Assembly (NCBI RefSeq): GCF_029201445.1
Contig: NZ_CP102381.1
Coordinates: 930,001-994,000, forward strand
Reading direction: 5' to 3'
Length of the DNA stretch: 64,000 nucleotides
DNA from: Thiomicrorhabdus lithotrophica
Lineage (GTDB): Bacteria > Pseudomonadota > Gammaproteobacteria > Thiomicrospirales > Thiomicrospiraceae
In this document: positions 17,981 through 24,546 of the stretch, in pieces
Layout of the letters: each line of letters opens with the position of its first letter
How positions within the stretch are numbered: the stretch's first letter is position 1
Program-made: the position numbers and the translations under genes
Notes under the pieces: model-generated
Databases searched by the model: none
The model's input: only the letters and a program-made list of their open reading frames with translations
Told to the model about the DNA's origin: nothing

Positions 17981-18229
17981 ATGGCAAAAGATGCAAAGAA
18001 AAAAGACGCTAAGAAACTAGCAAAGAAAGCAGAAGAAAAGTTGGCTAAAAAGTTAGCTAAGAAAAAAGCAGCTAAAAAAGATGCAAAAAAAGCGGATAAA
18101 AAGAAGGCTGCTAAAAAGAAAAATATCAAAAAAGCACTAAAGAAAAAAGTAGCTAAAAAGCAAGCTGCTAAGAAAGTAAAAAAGGCTAAGAAGTCAGCCA
18201 AGAAAGCAAAGAAGTCTAAAAAGAAATAA
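17981..18229 (+). CDS. Lys/Ala-rich basic protein, histone H1-like
   Basis: An 82-residue protein in which I count 44 Lys and 20 Ala; there is no Arg and no aromatic residue. It is built from AKK/KKA/KKK repeats, with a few Asp/Glu in the first half and none in the last third. The composition resembles histone H1-like bacterial nucleoid proteins (AlgP/HctB/KPH type), so DNA or RNA binding is likely but inferred. AGAGGA gives a ribosome site, a TATAAT lies at 17863-17868, and a dedicated terminator follows, so it is a monocistronic, deliberately expressed gene. The antisense open frame is an artefact of AAG/AAA repeats. Confidence 0.75.
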   Translation: MAKDAKKKDAKKLAKKAEEKLAKKLAKKKAAKKDAKKADKKKAAKKKNIKKALKKKVAKKQAAKKVKKAKKSAKKAKKSKKK

Positions 18230-18314: not shown

Positions 18315-19649
18315 TTATTCTTTTTCTTTGTCAGGTACAAACTTTAAAACGTTGCCATTAATACAATAGCGTTTATAGGTTGGGGCTGGCCCGTCATTAA
18401 ATACGTGACCAAGGTGAATGCCAGAGCTGGCGCTTCTTACTTCAACACGACTCATTCCTAGACTATTATCAGTGTGTTCGGTAATCGCACTCTCTAATGG
18501 GCTAAAGAAGCTTGGCCAGCCTGTACCGCTTTTAAACTTGGTATCACTTCTAAACAGCTTTGCTCCGGTAATTGGGTCTACAAAATAACCCGGCCGGGTC
18601 TCATCAAGATGAGAGCCTGTAAACGGCGCTTCGGTTCCTTCTTCAAACGCAATTCTGCGCTGTTCTGGTGTTAATAATCTAAAGCCAAGCCACTTCCAAA
18701 ACCGGGCTTTGTCGCCGTTGTAACCCGTGTATCTTGATACCTCTTTACCGTTTTCAAATAGGACAATCGTTGGCGTTGCAAACAGAGCTTTTTCAAGTTT
18801 CCAGCCTTCAGGTTGTTGCGGGTTAAGTGTCGCAACGATTGGCGTTTCAGCTGTCCAAGTATTTAGAACATCTTGTTTGAATTTAACGCAATAAGGGCAC
18901 TCCTCTGCTTCAAAAACAATCAGCTGTTTTTCTTTGTTAAGTGCGCTAGCTTCAAGTCTAGGATGTTGTTTGGTTTCAGACCCTGGATACGCAACACCTG
19001 TTCCACCTAGACCACAGTAACCATTTGGATTTTTTTCTAGATAGTCTTGATGATATTCCTCAGCCGTTATGTAGTTGCTTAATGGTGCGATTTCAGTGGT
19101 GATAGCTTGTTTACCAGCCTTAGTCAGTGCTTCTTGAAAAACAGTTTTGGTTTCTTCGGCTATGGCTTTCTCTTCATCTGTTTGATAATAAATGGCACTG
19201 CGGTAGTTGGACCCGACATCATTTCCTTGGCGATCACCTTGAGTGGGATTATGGTTTTCCCAGAATTTAATTAAGATCGTTTTTAAGTCGATCATAGAAG
19301 GGTTGTATGTCACTTTAATCACTTCTGCATGATTACGTTTCTGAGATAGCCCCATTTTAATAAGCTGTTCTAATCCCAATACCTCTTTGTAGCCAGCGTT
19401 AACGTCATCACCGTTTGAATAACCACTTTCAACATCAATCACGCCAGGTACTTCGGATAGTCTTTTTTCGGCACCCCAAAAACATCCCATGCCTAATACA
19501 ATAGATTTGCTATCTAAGTTGGTGTTAATTACTTCGTTGTTGTTTGTCATTTCAGGCTCCTTGGCGCAACTCTGTAAGCTGAGTGAAAAAGGGATTAAAA
19601 AAACAATAACCCATTTGGAGAAATTGAATCTAGTTGCATTTGTTTGCAT
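18315..19649 (-). CDS. msrAB: MsrA-thioredoxin-MsrB fusion lipoprotein
   Basis: A 444-residue exported methionine sulfoxide reductase. The signal segment (residues 13-27) ends in a lipobox before Cys28. The MsrA domain (about 48-225) has catalytic Cys56 in GMGCFWG and resolving-type Cys212 in NGYCGLGG. A thioredoxin/glutaredoxin-like domain (about 238-315) has the redox pair CPYC (251-254). The C-terminal MsrB domain (about 318-440) has GTGWPSF, HLGHVF and catalytic Cys429 in RYCINGN. The MsrB zinc CxxC pairs are absent. Neisserial PilB carries its thioredoxin domain at the N-terminus; here it sits between MsrA and MsrB. It likely repairs both sulfoxide epimers in periplasmic proteins. Confidence 0.92.
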   Translation of the reverse strand: MQTNATRFNFSKWVIVFLIPFSLSLQSCAKEPEMTNNNEVINTNLDSKSIVLGMGCFWGAEKRLSEVPGVIDVESGYSNGDDVNAGYKEVLGLEQLIKMGLSQKRNHAEVIKVTYNPSMIDLKTILIKFWENHNPTQGDRQGNDVGSNYRSAIYYQTDEEKAIAEETKTVFQEALTKAGKQAITTEIAPLSNYITAEEYHQDYLEKNPNGYCGLGGTGVAYPGSETKQHPRLEASALNKEKQLIVFEAEECPYCVKFKQDVLNTWTAETPIVATLNPQQPEGWKLEKALFATPTIVLFENGKEVSRYTGYNGDKARFWKWLGFRLLTPEQRRIAFEEGTEAPFTGSHLDETRPGYFVDPITGAKLFRSDTKFKSGTGWPSFFSPLESAITEHTDNSLGMSRVEVRSASSGIHLGHVFNDGPAPTYKRYCINGNVLKFVPDKEKE

Positions 19650-19889: not shown

Positions 19890-20402
19890 ATGATGTTTTT
19901 TCAGATTAAAAAATCCCAATTAGCCGTCGGTTTTTGGGTGGTTTTATTCAGCTTACTCACAGGGTGTTCTAGTTCGCCAAATAAGCCAGTACAGTCTTTT
20001 AAGATTGCAAAACCTGTTGATTTGTCCAATACAAGCAAGGTAAAAAGTTTGTTGCTGTCTCAATATAATTTATGGAAAGGCACGCCATATGAGTATGGTG
20101 GAAATGATTTAAATGGTGTGGATTGCTCGGCTTTTGTTCAAAATACCTACCGTTCAAAGCTTGGACACACATTACCTAGAACCACAAGAACCCAGATTAA
20201 AGTGGGGGCTAAGGTGAGAAAGAATGACTTAAAGGTTGGCGATATTGTATTTTTTAAGACGGGAAGAAACTCATTGCATAATGGGATTTACATTGGTAAA
20301 TCACAGTTTGTTCATGCTTCTAGTAGTAAAGGGGTAACGATTTCGAACCTTGATAATGTTTATTGGAAAAAAACCTATTACACCTCTAAAAGAATTCGTT
20401 AA
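19890..20402 (+). CDS. NlpC/P60 peptidoglycan endopeptidase lipoprotein, Spr/MepS-like
   Basis: About 170 residues from the ATG at 19890 (GGGA upstream); a longer frame from 19824 would put extra residues before the signal peptide. The signal segment ends in SLLTGCSSS, a lipobox. The NlpC/P60 domain shows catalytic Cys in GGNDLNGVDCSAFVQNTY, LPRTTRTQ, GDIVFFKTG, His in HNGIYIG and QFVHASSSKG. Such enzymes cleave cross-links in peptidoglycan to allow growth. It ends in a terminator built on the dispersed palindrome. Confidence 0.9.
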   Translation: MMFFQIKKSQLAVGFWVVLFSLLTGCSSSPNKPVQSFKIAKPVDLSNTSKVKSLLLSQYNLWKGTPYEYGGNDLNGVDCSAFVQNTYRSKLGHTLPRTTRTQIKVGAKVRKNDLKVGDIVFFKTGRNSLHNGIYIGKSQFVHASSSKGVTISNLDNVYWKKTYYTSKRIR

Positions 20403-20443
20403 TCAAACACAAGTGAATTAATCTTTACCGAATGTTTTGATTC

Positions 20444-20479
20444 AAAAGGAAGTTACCAGGCCTGGTAACTTCCTTTTTT
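20444..20479. terminator. Bidirectional terminator made of a 34-bp perfect palindrome centred on ACCAGGCCTGGT
   Basis: The arms AAAAGGAAGTTACCAGG and its complement meet at 20460/20461, followed by six T. The dispersed 12-mer forms the apex, so the hairpin has no dedicated loop. It lies between the convergent NlpC/P60 and radical-SAM genes. Confidence 0.85.
20455..20466. repeat. ACCAGGCCTGGT palindrome, copy 7
   Basis: Exact copy at the centre of the terminator at 20444-20479. Confidence 0.95.
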
Positions 20480-20501
20480 GTTTTAAGTGTTTAAAGCGGG
20501 T

Positions 20502-21590
20502 TTATCCTAATCTAATGGGTAAGCATTTATTGCCCCAATTACCCGGCTGTTGTTTGAATACGCCTGCAATTGGGGTGTTGCAGTGTGCGCAGCAACTGTC
20601 TTGCAGCTGCCAATCCGTGATTTCATAGTACTTGCGTTCAATGACTTTTTTACCACAATTAGGGCAGTAGGTTGCTTGGCCTTCAAAATCGAGTACATTG
20701 CCTGTGTAAACGTATTTTAATCCTGCTTTCATCGCAATTTTTCGTGCTTTTTCTATTGTTTCTATCGGTGTTTCAGGATTGTTCATCATGCGATAATCAG
20801 GATGGTATTTGGTAAAGTGCAGGGGAACTTCATCACCACAATGTTCCATTATCCATTCAGACATTTCAGCAATCTCTTTTTCGGAATCGTTTTCACCAGG
20901 AATAAGTAAAGTCGTTAATTCTAACCAGGTATCGGTTTCATTAGCGACATATTCAATCGTATCTAAAACGGGTTGAAGTTTGGCGCCAGTCAGCTTTTGA
21001 TAAAAGCGTTCATTAAAGGCTTTTAAATCTATATTAGTCGCATCCATTGCTTCAAAAAAAGTCTCTCTGGGTTTTTCACTAATGTATCCAGCCGTCACCG
21101 CAATATTTTTTATTCCTTGTTCTCTGCATGCTTGAGCAGTATCAATTGCATACTCATAGAATATAACAGGATCGTTATAAGTGTAGGCAACAGAGTCACA
21201 GTAATGCTTTTTAGCCGCTTCAGCGAGCATTTGGGGAGAAGCTTGATCTAATAATCGGTCCATATTTCTCGCCTTTGACATATCCCAATTTTGGCAAAAT
21301 TTACAGGCTAGGTTGCAACCCGCTGTACCAAAAGAGAGTACAGATGAGCCGGGTAAAAAATGGTTTAGAGGTTTCTTTTCGATTGGGTCGATACAGAATC
21401 CACTAGAACGCCCATAAGAAGTTAACCAGATTTGGTCATCTTTTCGACCTCTAACAAAACAGAAACCTCTTTGATTTTCGTGAAGCTGGCATTCTCGTGG
21501 ACAAAGGTCGCACTGGATTAAGCCGTTTTCTAATTTATGCCAATGCTCAACAGCTATGATTGAGGCATCGCTTAAATCGACATGTTTCAT
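20502..21590 (-). CDS. amrS: AmmeMemoRadiSam-system radical SAM protein
   Basis: A 362-residue PflA-like radical SAM protein. The N-terminus carries a CDLCPREC cysteine cluster (C27, C30, C34, then C44). The radical SAM motif GCNLACKFCQNW (C92, C96, C99) binds the 4Fe-4S cluster, and NDPVIFYEYAIDTAQ and TNIDLKAFNERFY follow. The C-terminus has a zinc-ribbon-like part (CPNC...CCAHC). It is divergent, with a 69-base gap, from the MEMO-family and AMMECR1 genes, making a complete AmmeMemoRadiSam set. Substrate unknown to me. Confidence 0.92.
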   Translation of the reverse strand: MKHVDLSDASIIAVEHWHKLENGLIQCDLCPRECQLHENQRGFCFVRGRKDDQIWLTSYGRSSGFCIDPIEKKPLNHFLPGSSVLSFGTAGCNLACKFCQNWDMSKARNMDRLLDQASPQMLAEAAKKHYCDSVAYTYNDPVIFYEYAIDTAQACREQGIKNIAVTAGYISEKPRETFFEAMDATNIDLKAFNERFYQKLTGAKLQPVLDTIEYVANETDTWLELTTLLIPGENDSEKEIAEMSEWIMEHCGDEVPLHFTKYHPDYRMMNNPETPIETIEKARKIAMKAGLKYVYTGNVLDFEGQATYCPNCGKKVIERKYYEITDWQLQDSCCAHCNTPIAGVFKQQPGNWGNKCLPIRLG

Positions 21591-21659
21591 ATGAATTCCC
21601 TTGAAAATATTGTGTATACCCTATATATATAGATAAGTTGTTAGTATTCAAGGAGTTTT

Positions 21660-22475
21660 ATGACAATGAGCGTTAGGCCTCCAGCGGTTTCAGGCATGTT
21701 CTATCCTAGTGGTAAGCAGGAAATATCTGATTTTTTTGCTGAGTGTGAGAATGTATCTTTAGTAAGACATACTCATAGCGATGCTATCCCACGCGCGTTA
21801 ATTCTACCGCATGCAGGTTATAACTATTCTGGTTGTGCAGCCTACGAAGGTTATCAATATTGGCAAGCTGCCGGTGAAAAAATAAAAACGGTTGTCGTGA
21901 TTGGTCCTGCTCATAGAGTAGCATTTGAAGGCATTGCAACTGTGGGTGTTGAGTTTTTAGAAACCCCTCTAGGATTGGCTGAGGTGGATAATGACATAAG
22001 AGATCACTTGGTAACTGAGAATTTGATTGATGTTTCAGACCAAGCGCATGCCGCAGAACATAGTATTGAAGTGCATCTACCTTTTATTCAATCCATGCTT
22101 CCCAATGCAAAGATATTACCTCTATTAGATGGCATGGTTTCGGCAGAAAAAGTGAAGCAAATTATTGAGTCTCTATGGGACGATTCAGGTGTGTATTTTG
22201 TTATTAGCAGTGATTTAAGCCATTTTCATTCTTATGATCAGGCGCAAGCCTTAGATAAACAAACGGCAGACTTAATTGAATCAGGCGATTGGCAAGCACT
22301 TAATGGAAATAGGGCGTGTGGTTATATCGGTATTCAAGGCTTATTGAAGATGCAGGCTAGTCATTCGTTAAAGCTTGAGCAGATTAAACTGATTAATTCT
22401 GGTGATACGGCAGGAGATAAGCAAAGAGTAGTGGGTTATGGTTGCTGGTCTGTTTTTGAGCAGGAGATACATTAA
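21660..22475 (+). CDS. amrB: AmmeMemoRadiSam-system protein B (MEMO1 family)
   Basis: A 271-residue MEMO-family protein related in fold to class III extradiol dioxygenases. Conserved metal-type positions are visible in LPHAGYNYSG, IGPAHRV, AEHSIEVHLPFIQ, SSDLSHFHSY and CGYIGIQG. The family binds iron or copper in human MEMO1; the bacterial reaction is not known to me. Two ATGs (21660 and 21666) share one AGGAG; the second has the more normal spacing. The stop overlaps the AMMECR1 start (TAATG), so the two are translationally coupled. Confidence 0.92.
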   Translation: MTMSVRPPAVSGMFYPSGKQEISDFFAECENVSLVRHTHSDAIPRALILPHAGYNYSGCAAYEGYQYWQAAGEKIKTVVVIGPAHRVAFEGIATVGVEFLETPLGLAEVDNDIRDHLVTENLIDVSDQAHAAEHSIEVHLPFIQSMLPNAKILPLLDGMVSAEKVKQIIESLWDDSGVYFVISSDLSHFHSYDQAQALDKQTADLIESGDWQALNGNRACGYIGIQGLLKMQASHSLKLEQIKLINSGDTAGDKQRVVGYGCWSVFEQEIH

Positions 22476-23050
22476 TGAATTTATTGCCAGAGCAGGTAAA
22501 TACTGTTTTTGAAATTGCAAAACAGGCGATTGAGTTTGGATTGAATGGACAAGCATTAGATGAAAGTACAGTGGCTTTATCGGCTCATTCTCAATTAAAT
22601 GAAAAGATAGCAACTTTTGTTACCTTGAACAAGAAAGTAGAGTTGAGAGGCTGTATAGGCTCTTTGCAGGCTCATAGAACATTGGCTGAAGATGTTTTCA
22701 GTAATGCCTATTCAGCGGCTTTTAGAGATCCTCGGTTCAAGCCTTTAGCTGAATATGAATTAATTGATTTGGATGTGGAAGTTTCGATTTTAACGCCACC
22801 TGAGCCGATAGAAAAATGCTTCACAAAGAGCATGTTACTGGATGGTTTAGAGCCTTATAAAGATGGTTTAATTATTTCTGATGGTGTCAATCGAGCAACG
22901 TTTTTACCTTCTGTTTGGGAGCAGTTGCCCGACAAAGAAATGTTTGTGAATCATTTGATGCGCAAAGCTGGGATTGGATTTTGGTCAGACAAGATAAGTT
23001 GCCAGCGTTATTACGTTAAATCTTATCGTCGTGAATGGAAAAATATTTGA
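22475..23050 (+). CDS. amrA: AmmeMemoRadiSam-system protein A (AMMECR1 domain)
   Basis: A 191-residue AMMECR1-family protein. The hallmark motif LRGCIGSLQAHRTLAEDVFSNAYSAAFRDPRF is present, followed by YELIDLDVEVSILTPPEPI and the C-terminal FLPSVWEQLPDKEMFVNHLMRKAGI. It starts on the last base of the MEMO stop, with GGAG upstream. In bacteria and archaea it co-occurs with MEMO and radical SAM proteins; the biochemical role is unknown. A dispersed palindrome follows 70 bases downstream. Confidence 0.92.
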   Translation: MNLLPEQVNTVFEIAKQAIEFGLNGQALDESTVALSAHSQLNEKIATFVTLNKKVELRGCIGSLQAHRTLAEDVFSNAYSAAFRDPRFKPLAEYELIDLDVEVSILTPPEPIEKCFTKSMLLDGLEPYKDGLIISDGVNRATFLPSVWEQLPDKEMFVNHLMRKAGIGFWSDKISCQRYYVKSYRREWKNI

Positions 23051-23120
23051 AGTGATTAGGGGTTTATTATTACGTAGTTTTAATAGGGTTTTTTAATGCA
23101 GCTTTAGCTCAAAAAACCTG

Positions 23121-23132
23121 ACCAGGCCTGGT
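23121..23132. repeat. ACCAGGCCTGGT palindrome, copy 8
   Basis: Exact copy between the AMMECR1 gene and the carA promoter. Confidence 0.95.
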
Positions 23133-23187
23133 CTTTTCTAAAACAGAAATAAGCTGAATAAATCCCGAATATATGCGGTTATTGATA

Positions 23188-23216
23188 TAGACTTTGTATT
23201 GCAAATGCAGTACAAT
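23188..23216 (+). promoter_or_regulatory. carA promoter
   Basis: TAGACT (23188-23193), 17-base spacer, TACAAT (23211-23216). Initiation near 23223 would give a leader of about 190 bases containing a leader ORF and a terminator. Confidence 0.5.
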
Positions 23217-23271
23217 CCGCGTTATTAATTTTTGCGACTGAAATTAAGCAGTTAATTGCAATTTACGGGGT

Positions 23272-23307
23272 ATGAAGCGGGATGATTCAGTTCATTTAGC
23301 AACTTAA
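23272..23307 (+). CDS. Putative 11-residue carA leader peptide
   Basis: ATG-AAG-CGG-GAT-GAT-TCA-then GTT-CAT-TTA-GCA-ACT-TAA encodes MKRDDSVHLAT. GGGG lies two bases before the ATG, and the stop codon merges into the A tract of an intrinsic terminator. The arrangement is that of a translated attenuator. carAB of Pseudomonas aeruginosa is also controlled through a leader peptide, but this one holds only one Arg and no Tyr codons, so the sensed signal is unclear. Confidence 0.45.
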   Translation: MKRDDSVHLAT

Positions 23308-23349
23308 AAAACGGAGTGAGTCTTCTTTGGAGGCTGGCTCCGTTTTTTT
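23306..23349 (+). terminator. Attenuator-type terminator before carA
   Basis: AAAAAACGGAG pairs with CTCCGTTTTTTT across a 21-base loop. It lies within the carA leader, 64 bases before the start codon, so it must be overcome for carAB expression. Confidence 0.7.
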
Positions 23350-23412
23350 GTATGTGGCGTAGATTTTCGATAATTGACTTATATTTCAAATTCACTTTGG
23401 ATGGATGAATAA

Positions 23413-24546
23413 ATGACACAGGCTTTGCTGGCACTAGAAGACGGTACCCTTTTTTGGGGAACTTCGCTGGGTGCGGAAGGAGAAACAACAGGTGAGGTAG
23501 TATTTAATACTTCATTAACCGGTTATCAAGAAATCTTAACGGATCCTTCTTATTTCAAACAAATTGTTACCTTAACTTACCCGCATATCGGTAATGTTGG
23601 TGTAAATGCGGAAGATGAAGAATCGCCAAAAATTATGGCTCAAGGACTGGTTGTAAAAGACTGTCCCGTATTGATGAGTAACTTCCGCGCTGAAAAAAGT
23701 CTGCCTGACTATTTAAAAGAACAGAACGTTGTTGCGATTGCGGATATTGATACACGTAAATTGACACGTATTTTGCGTGACAAAGGCGCGCAATCTGGCG
23801 TGATTGTTGCCGGTGAAAATATTGATGCAGATGCAGCAGTAGCAAAAGCTAAAGCGTTTAGTGGTCTAAAAGGATTGGATTTAGCTAAAGAAGTGACAAC
23901 AGCTGAAACTTACGTATGGACTGAAGGTTCATGGGAACTAGGGAAAGGTCATGCTGATTGTTCTGCAAATAATGATTTTCATATTGTTGCCTATGATTAT
24001 GGCGTTAAGCGTAACATCCTGCGCATGATTGCAGATCGTGGTTGTAAGTTAACAGTAGTGCCTGCAAAAACACCTGCCGAAGAAGTTTTAGCCATGAATC
24101 CAGATGGTGTTTTCTTATCAAATGGTCCTGGTGATCCAGAGCCATGTGACTACGCAATTGAAGCGATTCAAAAAGTATTAGAAACAGATGTTCCTGTGTT
24201 TGGTATTTGTTTAGGTCACCAGCTACTCGCTCTAGCCAGCGGTGCAAAAACAGTCAAGATGAAGTTCGGTCATCACGGCGCTAACCATCCAGTTCAAAAC
24301 CTGGATAGCAAAAAAGTCATGATTACTTCGCAAAACCACGGTTTTGCTGTTGATGGTGATTCTCTTCCTGCAAATTTAAAAGCAACACATAAATCGTTAT
24401 TTGATGGTTCATTACAGGGTATCTCACGTACTGATAAGTCTGCATTTAGCTTCCAAGGACACCCTGAGGCAAGCCCTGGTCCGCACGACGTGGCGCCTTT
24501 GTTTGACCAGTTTATCGATAATATTAAAACCGCGAAAAACGCGTAA
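23413..24546 (+). CDS. carA: Carbamoyl-phosphate synthase small subunit
   Basis: The glutaminase subunit of carbamoyl-phosphate synthase, 377 residues, for arginine and pyrimidine synthesis. The N-terminal domain has [42 protein letters not shown]. The class I amidotransferase domain has the Cys nucleophile in [16 protein letters not shown], and the catalytic His/Glu in [13 protein letters not shown]. It is followed by carB after 18 bases. An attenuator-like leader precedes it. Confidence 0.98.

Follow-up and report, generated by a model that had tools for sequence, protein, structure and literature searches.

An intact AmmeMemoRadiSam locus in Thiomicrorhabdus lithotrophica and a candidate peptide substrate in a sister branch of its radical SAM family

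What do a radical S-adenosylmethionine (radical SAM) protein, a MEMO protein and an AMMECR1 protein do together? The question is raised by three neighboring genes in a 64,000-nucleotide stretch of the Thiomicrorhabdus lithotrophica genome (contig NZ_CP102381.1, positions 930,001 to 994,000; hereafter the window, in whose own numbering positions are given). A first-pass annotation, made from the sequence alone, had described them as a complete, divergently arranged set of three families. The list of open reading frames (ORFs) with translations placed the three ORFs exactly where that annotation had put them, one on the minus strand and two on the plus strand:

20502 to 21590, minus strand: AmmeMemoRadiSam radical SAM enzyme, 362 residues (TIGR04337, 606 against a cut-off of 220 bits; PF04055; model closest to pyruvate formate-lyase activase)
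21660 to 22475, plus strand: MEMO protein (AmmeMemoRadiSam protein B), 271 residues (TIGR04336, 235 against 26 bits; PF01875; match to human MEMO1)
22475 to 23050, plus strand: AMMECR1 protein (AmmeMemoRadiSam protein A), 191 residues (TIGR04335, 180 against 99 bits; PF01871)

Each protein scored above the curated cut-off of its NCBIfam model and the Pfam domains Radical_SAM, Memo and AMMECR1 also exceeded theirs, so the three family identities hold. The source genome contains a single match per family. The predicted one-base overlap of the MEMO and AMMECR1 genes was found at 22473–22477 (TAATG), and the divergent layout around a 69-base gap was likewise as described. The window locus is an intact AmmeMemoRadiSam unit, all three families above cut-off and adjacent, with no feature that distinguishes it: another ordinary member of a known, functionally unsolved set. 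Because no signal-like start is visible in the set, its sequences place it with the predicted cytosolic kind. Our literature search, whose coverage did not extend to the 2019 comparative study, found no established reaction, in agreement with the annotation's view that the reaction is unsettled. We tentatively propose, at less than even confidence, that the radical SAM protein modifies a peptide or polypeptide for use by an iron unit of MEMO and AMMECR1; extension of this idea to the window would be by analogy with a sister branch of the family.

The known association of the three families was borne out when one set of 199 genomes from the phylum was searched with each family in turn. Above cut-off, radical SAM was found in 65 genomes, MEMO in 62 and AMMECR1 in 61; all three were present in 60, none in 133, and six were discordant. 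Fisher's exact test gave p < 1e-43 for each family pair, values that overstate independence because the genomes are related. Counted by genus (n = 121), radical SAM and MEMO occurred together in 29, radical SAM only in three, MEMO only in none and neither in 89. Among the discordant genomes, four had radical SAM only (G022, G127, G174 and G185), the gene being broken in G185 and a distant relative (296 bits) in G127. MEMO and AMMECR1 occurred without a radical SAM match in the 730 contigs of G109, and AMMECR1 alone of the three families was missing from G159.

Gene layout was compared in 80 loci taken from named genomes. There were at least 588 candidates, of which these 80 matched best, so the sample leans to close relatives. 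MEMO and AMMECR1 were divergent from the radical SAM gene in 35 of the 80 (25 of them with 3 kb on each side), so the layout in the window is the commonest in this set. The order MEMO-AMMECR1-radical SAM on one strand was seen in 17 loci, MEMO alone nearby in 10 and a different order in one; neither partner was near the radical SAM gene in 17, nine of which had a flank shorter than 3 kb. In 23 genomes with an incomplete radical SAM locus, MEMO was found somewhere in the genome in 19 and AMMECR1 in 15. Neither was found genome-wide in G202, G206, G208 and G211, nor was AMMECR1 in G203, G216, G218 and G220. Many of the 23 are draft assemblies by title; G211 (Halomonas beimenensis) is titled a complete genome.

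The sister branch was first reached through second radical SAM copies in relatives. Its 31 loci comprise 11 from 48 genomes of one class, L272 from one gammaproteobacterial assembly, and 19 drawn from the phylum of a Myxococcota assembly, where 81 of 187 genomes matched a sister-branch query. A tree of 85 of the 136 radical SAM entries (clade 1 partly a random sample; a quick tree whose careful search was unfinished) separated the sister branch (31 rows) from the window's branch (50 rows) with Shimodaira-Hasegawa-like approximate likelihood ratio support of 94 and 99. MEMO was fused to AMMECR1 in 19 of the 20 sister-branch proteins measured. A hydrophobic segment preceded MEMO in 17/20 proteins of the sister branch compared with 3/47 of the window's branch, this measure taking in only proteins in which the start motif was found with 15 residues ahead of it. 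Several of the sister-branch fusions appeared lipoprotein-like by eye, and from these features the fusion looks exported. Where starts were clear (L094, L095, L097 and L100), the first cysteine motif stood at the very start of the radical SAM protein, and no signal-like segment preceded it.

A small ORF lies directly after the stop codon of the sister-branch radical SAM gene, mostly in an ATGA overlap. Relative to that stop it begins at −4 in 11 of 22 cases and at −10 in eight, seven of which have a second methionine at −4. The encoded peptide combines a pair of arginines with a hydrophobic stretch and a conserved tail of the form P-L-x3-D-[LF]-Y-x2-H-x-L-A-G. A strict filter (40–120 residues, start between −25 and +60, two adjoining arginines, hydrophobic run, AG end) detected this gene in 22/31 sister loci versus 0/99 entries of the window's branch; the filter was set after the first examples had been seen, which makes its AG end circular. 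The count omits L152, which lies with L264, and entries below 200 bits; one gene is counted twice among the 99, as L191 and as L305. Among the sister loci missed by the filter, L094 and L100 have an ORF with an LG end, and L272 and L309 have an ORF of the two-arginine type without the AG end. In L317, L319, L322, L324 and L325 the filter detected no peptide and the available stretch contained no MEMO or AMMECR1 gene, L319 lying at the edge of its contig. In L311 the peptide gene is present but no partner is seen, and the contig stops 328 bases further on.

Conserved columns in 24 peptides, counted from an end whose AG is a filter criterion, were D at −10 (18 peptides), L at −14 (19), P at −15 (15), L or F at −9 (17) and H at −5 (12). 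Four peptides were compared with NCBIfam and Pfam: three had no match and one had weak matches only, below cut-off, to a twin-arginine signal model (E 0.041 and 0.097), to a 'radical SAM target protein' model (E 0.013) and to two others. We use the terms twin-arginine-type and exported for this peptide from its sequence features rather than from a signal predictor. Because the small gene lies between the sister radical SAM and fusion genes, in 22/31 loci as against none of the 99, the comparison suggests that the peptide is the best candidate substrate of the sister-branch radical SAM protein. The first-pass description of the set as complete therefore stands in so far as all three families are present; the sister branch has at least one more dedicated small gene. 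For that branch, and not for the window, there is a parallel in the peptide-processing modules of the FtsH-ternary conflict system: as far as the accessible text of PMC7159879 goes, a radical SAM domain termed related occurs there next to a small precursor whose C-terminus is conserved, and those modules differ in having a metallopeptidase, with MEMO and AMMECR1 not described in that text.

Two kinds of membrane protein gene accompany the sister-branch loci:

L094, L100, L259, L272, L308, L309, L314–L316, L319–L321 and L323: large membrane protein with FMN_bind and Fer4_5 domains (NosR, NapH, RnfG-like)
L093, L095–L099, L260, L261 and L101: Gate-domain protein, the domain checked on L093

The former was detected as a relative by phmmer in 13 sister loci, its domains being checked on L308, L100 and L314, and one weak match (40 bits) was seen in the window-branch locus L185. 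Relatives of the Gate-domain protein were found in eight other sister loci and in L101, which has the fusion and no radical SAM gene in its stretch; in the stretches examined no locus had both kinds. An electron conduit next to an iron protein that is putatively exported would be consistent with redox chemistry beyond the cytosol.

The prediction of an iron protein derives from the MEMO comparison. The MEMO profile aligned with human MEMO1 over nearly its full length (E 1.8e-39), and the alignment gave counterparts in the window for the residues described as iron and copper ligands of the human protein (H49, H81 and C244; available text of PMC11081632):

21810 to 21812, plus strand: H51 of MEMO, counterpart of human MEMO1 iron ligand H49
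21912 to 21914, plus strand: H85 of MEMO, counterpart of H81
22317 to 22319, plus strand: C220 of MEMO, counterpart of C244
22643 to 22660, plus strand: LRGCIG motif, residues 57–62 of AMMECR1, invariant in 13 AMMECR1 sequences and 20 fusions

D185 and H188 align with human D189 and H192, and all five residues were invariant across 14 MEMO sequences (13 distinct, L028 and L111 being identical). The window MEMO thus keeps the His-His-Cys ligand set of a MEMO1-type iron protein, both histidines and the cysteine matching human MEMO1 (PDB 7kq8, 7l5c, 3bcz), and iron binding is predicted; it differs from the human protein in its setting, a bacterial operon that also encodes AMMECR1 and a radical SAM protein. 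A natural MEMO-AMMECR1 fusion was modeled with a predicted local distance difference test score (pLDDT) of 87.7 and a predicted template modeling score (pTM) of 0.74. Its MEMO part matched aminophenol dioxygenase weakly (7txy and 8ihg; E 3e-5, 9–11% identity). This dioxygenase-like fold is common to MEMO and the extradiol dioxygenases, whose metal ligands are His-His-Glu/Asp, whereas the third ligand of the window MEMO is Cys instead of Glu. The window AMMECR1 matched the archaeal AMMECR1 structures 1zq7, 1wsc and 1vaj, of unknown function, with E values of 4.5e-17 to 1.9e-13 and LRGCIG aligned.

The radical SAM protein was aligned over 35 sequences, the window among them, and three groups of cysteines were invariant:

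21459 to 21512, minus strand: N-terminal cysteine set C27, C30, C34, C44
21294 to 21317, minus strand: radical SAM cluster motif C92-x3-C96-x2-C99
20580 to 20666, minus strand: C-terminal cysteine set C309 ... C334, C337

The extra cysteine clusters noticed at first reading are thus conserved beside the cluster motif. The structure model (pLDDT 87, pTM 0.90) was closest, among solved structures, to pyruvate formate-lyase activase (PDB 3c8f, 3cb8; TMt 0.80, 18% identity). The window protein differs from that enzyme by its added N- and C-terminal cysteine sets, and it lacks DGxGxR, the motif of glycyl-radical activases. A glycyl-radical enzyme activase proper was ruled out, the protein scoring 67.9 against the TIGR02493 cut-off of 231.75 bits. 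From its modeled fold it may nevertheless work like an activase-type radical enzyme. Selenocysteine, suggested by an in-frame TGA flagged in seven sister-branch radical SAM proteins, was also rejected: the flagged proteins end there in the alignment, so the TGA at the C-terminal end was read as an ordinary stop. A third, distant radical SAM group (L105, L262, L263 and L264; ORFs of 417–542 residues, 312–326 bits by a custom profile) had no MEMO or AMMECR1 found in the surrounding stretches; in L264 a window-branch copy adjoins the distant-group copy.

From these observations a sequence of steps can be proposed. The radical SAM protein, with its activase-like barrel, would generate a 5'-deoxyadenosyl radical and modify a peptide or protein. 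MEMO, with its His-His-Cys iron site, and AMMECR1, with its LRGCIG loop, would act together as a single redox unit, either using the modified product or completing it. In the sister branch, the twin-arginine-type peptide would be modified in the cytosol, then exported, and would meet the exported MEMO-AMMECR1 protein outside. If the radical SAM protein is cytosolic and its partner exported, the modification must travel on something exported later, and a twin-arginine-type peptide translated with the radical SAM enzyme would be a natural candidate for the carrier. No peptide gene adjoins the set in the window's branch, so there the substrate may come from a gene at another locus, or a partner protein may itself be the substrate. 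We infer the modification, the order of the steps and their extension to the window, to which only the general idea is carried. In favor of the proposal we count the block co-occurrence, the MEMO-AMMECR1 fusions, the conserved iron ligands and a radical SAM fold like that of an enzyme acting on a protein substrate; for the sister branch we add the peptide gene with its conserved tail, the hydrophobic N-termini of the partner and the FMN/polyferredoxin membrane protein.

Several observations weigh against it. By the strict filter, the peptide gene was absent from all 99 window-branch entries, 98 of which had the radical SAM stop and at least 200 bases beyond; for this reason the peptide idea reaches the window by analogy. 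Nine of the 31 sister loci failed the same filter. Codon-position evidence was mixed, the third position being clearly the most variable in three of six pairs and not in the other three. Lastly, the radical SAM gene occurred without MEMO and AMMECR1 in G174, G202, G206, G208 and G211.

The main rival explanation is small-molecule chemistry, which we regard as possible, if rather doubtful. Here the radical SAM protein would make or alter a metabolite, MEMO-AMMECR1 would perform the next step, and the peptide of the sister branch would serve as an anchor or carrier. Burroughs and colleagues are said to have put forward, in 2019, a nucleotide base or an isoprenoid as the metabolite. The Gate domain, annotated as 'nucleoside recognition', in eight sister loci and L101 fits such a pathway, as does the lack of an adjoining peptide gene in the window's branch. 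MEMO has the fold of ring-cleaving dioxygenases, according to the available text of PMC11081632; the third metal ligand is a cysteine and not a glutamate, however, and for human MEMO1 that same text reports no dioxygenase activity. Nor did a metabolic neighbor recur in more than 14 of 101 sources: beyond the three families, no neighbor cluster exceeded that number, yielding no fourth conserved gene for the window's branch in a coarse clustering that retained long antisense ORFs, recovered the radical SAM gene in 79 of the 101 sources and can let small genes escape. A literature search on UPF0103 found no paper for a link between archaeal MEMO and mevalonate genes.

Alternatively, the radical SAM protein could be a maturase that modifies AMMECR1 (for example at the LRGCIG loop) or MEMO, as activases do with their partner enzymes. 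The activase-like fold of the model, the invariance of LRGCIG and the block co-occurrence all agree with this. It is nonetheless unlikely, given the score far below the activase families and the missing DGxGxR; moreover, Haloferax volcanii, taken as a control, has AMMECR1 and no radical SAM family match above cut-off, and G109 has both partners in its 730 contigs without the radical SAM match. A role in metal or redox homeostasis, in which MEMO would mainly handle iron or copper, AMMECR1 would help and the radical SAM protein would be a client whose clusters are served, draws on the site conserved in the window MEMO, which corresponds to the Fe(II)- and Cu(I)-binding site of human MEMO1 (accessible portions of PMC11081632 and PMC11918410). 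We consider it improbable, as it would not bind MEMO and AMMECR1 so tightly to one radical SAM family and leaves the sister-branch small gene unexplained. That the three proteins have unrelated functions and are chance neighbors in the window, as the few genomes with one or two families might suggest, is scarcely credible in view of how the families occur as a block across 199 genomes and 121 genera, the natural MEMO-AMMECR1 fusions and the adjacency in more than one layout.

Orphan radical SAM genes offered little further context. In L103, L104 and L156 a radical SAM gene (broken in L104) without MEMO or AMMECR1 nearby adjoins a C13 peptidase-like gene; as a partner for the orphans this gene was set aside as uninformative, being limited to these three loci (family search on L156, otherwise by cluster). 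By eye, nothing stood out in the flanks of the orphan gene of Halomonas beimenensis. Within the genus of the window, in which radical SAM alone was searched in the other genomes, an above-cut-off gene was present in two of 13 genomes, its own included, with a remnant in G228. In G226 the three genes are intact, divergent and in the same order, with identities to the window of 78% (radical SAM), 50% (MEMO) and 52% (AMMECR1); msrAB, NlpC and carA were not found within 11 kb around this set. The draft genome G228 retains the msrAB-NlpC neighborhood with roughly the C-terminal third of the radical SAM protein and fragments of AMMECR1, and MEMO was not found on its 3.7-kb contig. This decayed counterpart of the window locus lies at about 520–1408 of L334, in the same neighborhood. 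In the window itself, an ORF at 18315–19649 (minus strand, 444 residues) reads by eye as MsrA, thioredoxin-like and MsrB parts with a lipoprotein-like start, and an 82-residue ORF at 17981–18229 (plus strand) consists almost entirely of lysine and alanine, a histone H1-like composition.

The intergenic sequences of the locus contain three further features:

21591 to 21659, no strand assigned: 69-base divergent gap, with TTGAAA-17-TATATA by eye (21601 to 21629, plus strand) and the AT palindrome CTATATATATAG (21621 to 21632, by eye)
20444 to 20477, no strand assigned: terminator-like stem of 15 pairs 3' of the radical SAM gene, containing ACCAGGCCTGGT
23120 to 23133, no strand assigned: short terminator-like stem 3' of the AMMECR1 gene, containing ACCAGGCCTGGT

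The first-pass annotation had read the gap as a shared promoter implying co-regulation. This was not borne out: a consensus promoter scan of 20300–23420 placed no site in the gap, and the one promoter-like site observed, outside it, was fewer than the shuffle mean of 9.1. Co-regulation of the three genes from a shared promoter is plausible. The 12-base palindrome ACCAGGCCTGGT occurs at 19 sites in the window, from 320 to 63233 and including 20455–20466 and 23121–23132, where 0.00 were expected. There are 454 copies in the 2.5-Mb source genome (reversed control 0) and between 0 and 399 in 12 genomes of the same genus. As six of the 19 window sites lie within predicted ORFs and long stem extensions occur at two only, the palindrome is more than a terminator, possibly an uptake-sequence-like or other genome-wide repeat.

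Both MEMO and AMMECR1 are tied to disease. MEMO occurs from archaea to humans (PMC7694686, available text). A wider reading, which we offer as speculative and hold to be doubtful, is that AmmeMemoRadiSam is a peptide-modifying redox system of two branches: an exported one, with the twin-arginine-type peptide, co-translated with the radical SAM enzyme, as substrate or prosthetic peptide of an iron MEMO-AMMECR1 protein fed through the FMN/polyferredoxin membrane protein, and a cytosolic one, that of the window, with the same chemistry and a substrate encoded elsewhere; human MEMO1 and AMMECR1 would be remnants of it. Our literature search, within the coverage given above, found no paper on the small peptide, and we do not present either the peptide or the membrane partners as new to the literature. 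The small gene seen in the sister branch provides a concrete candidate substrate for the radical SAM protein, one that can be synthesized, and thereby makes the question of what this protein acts on directly testable.

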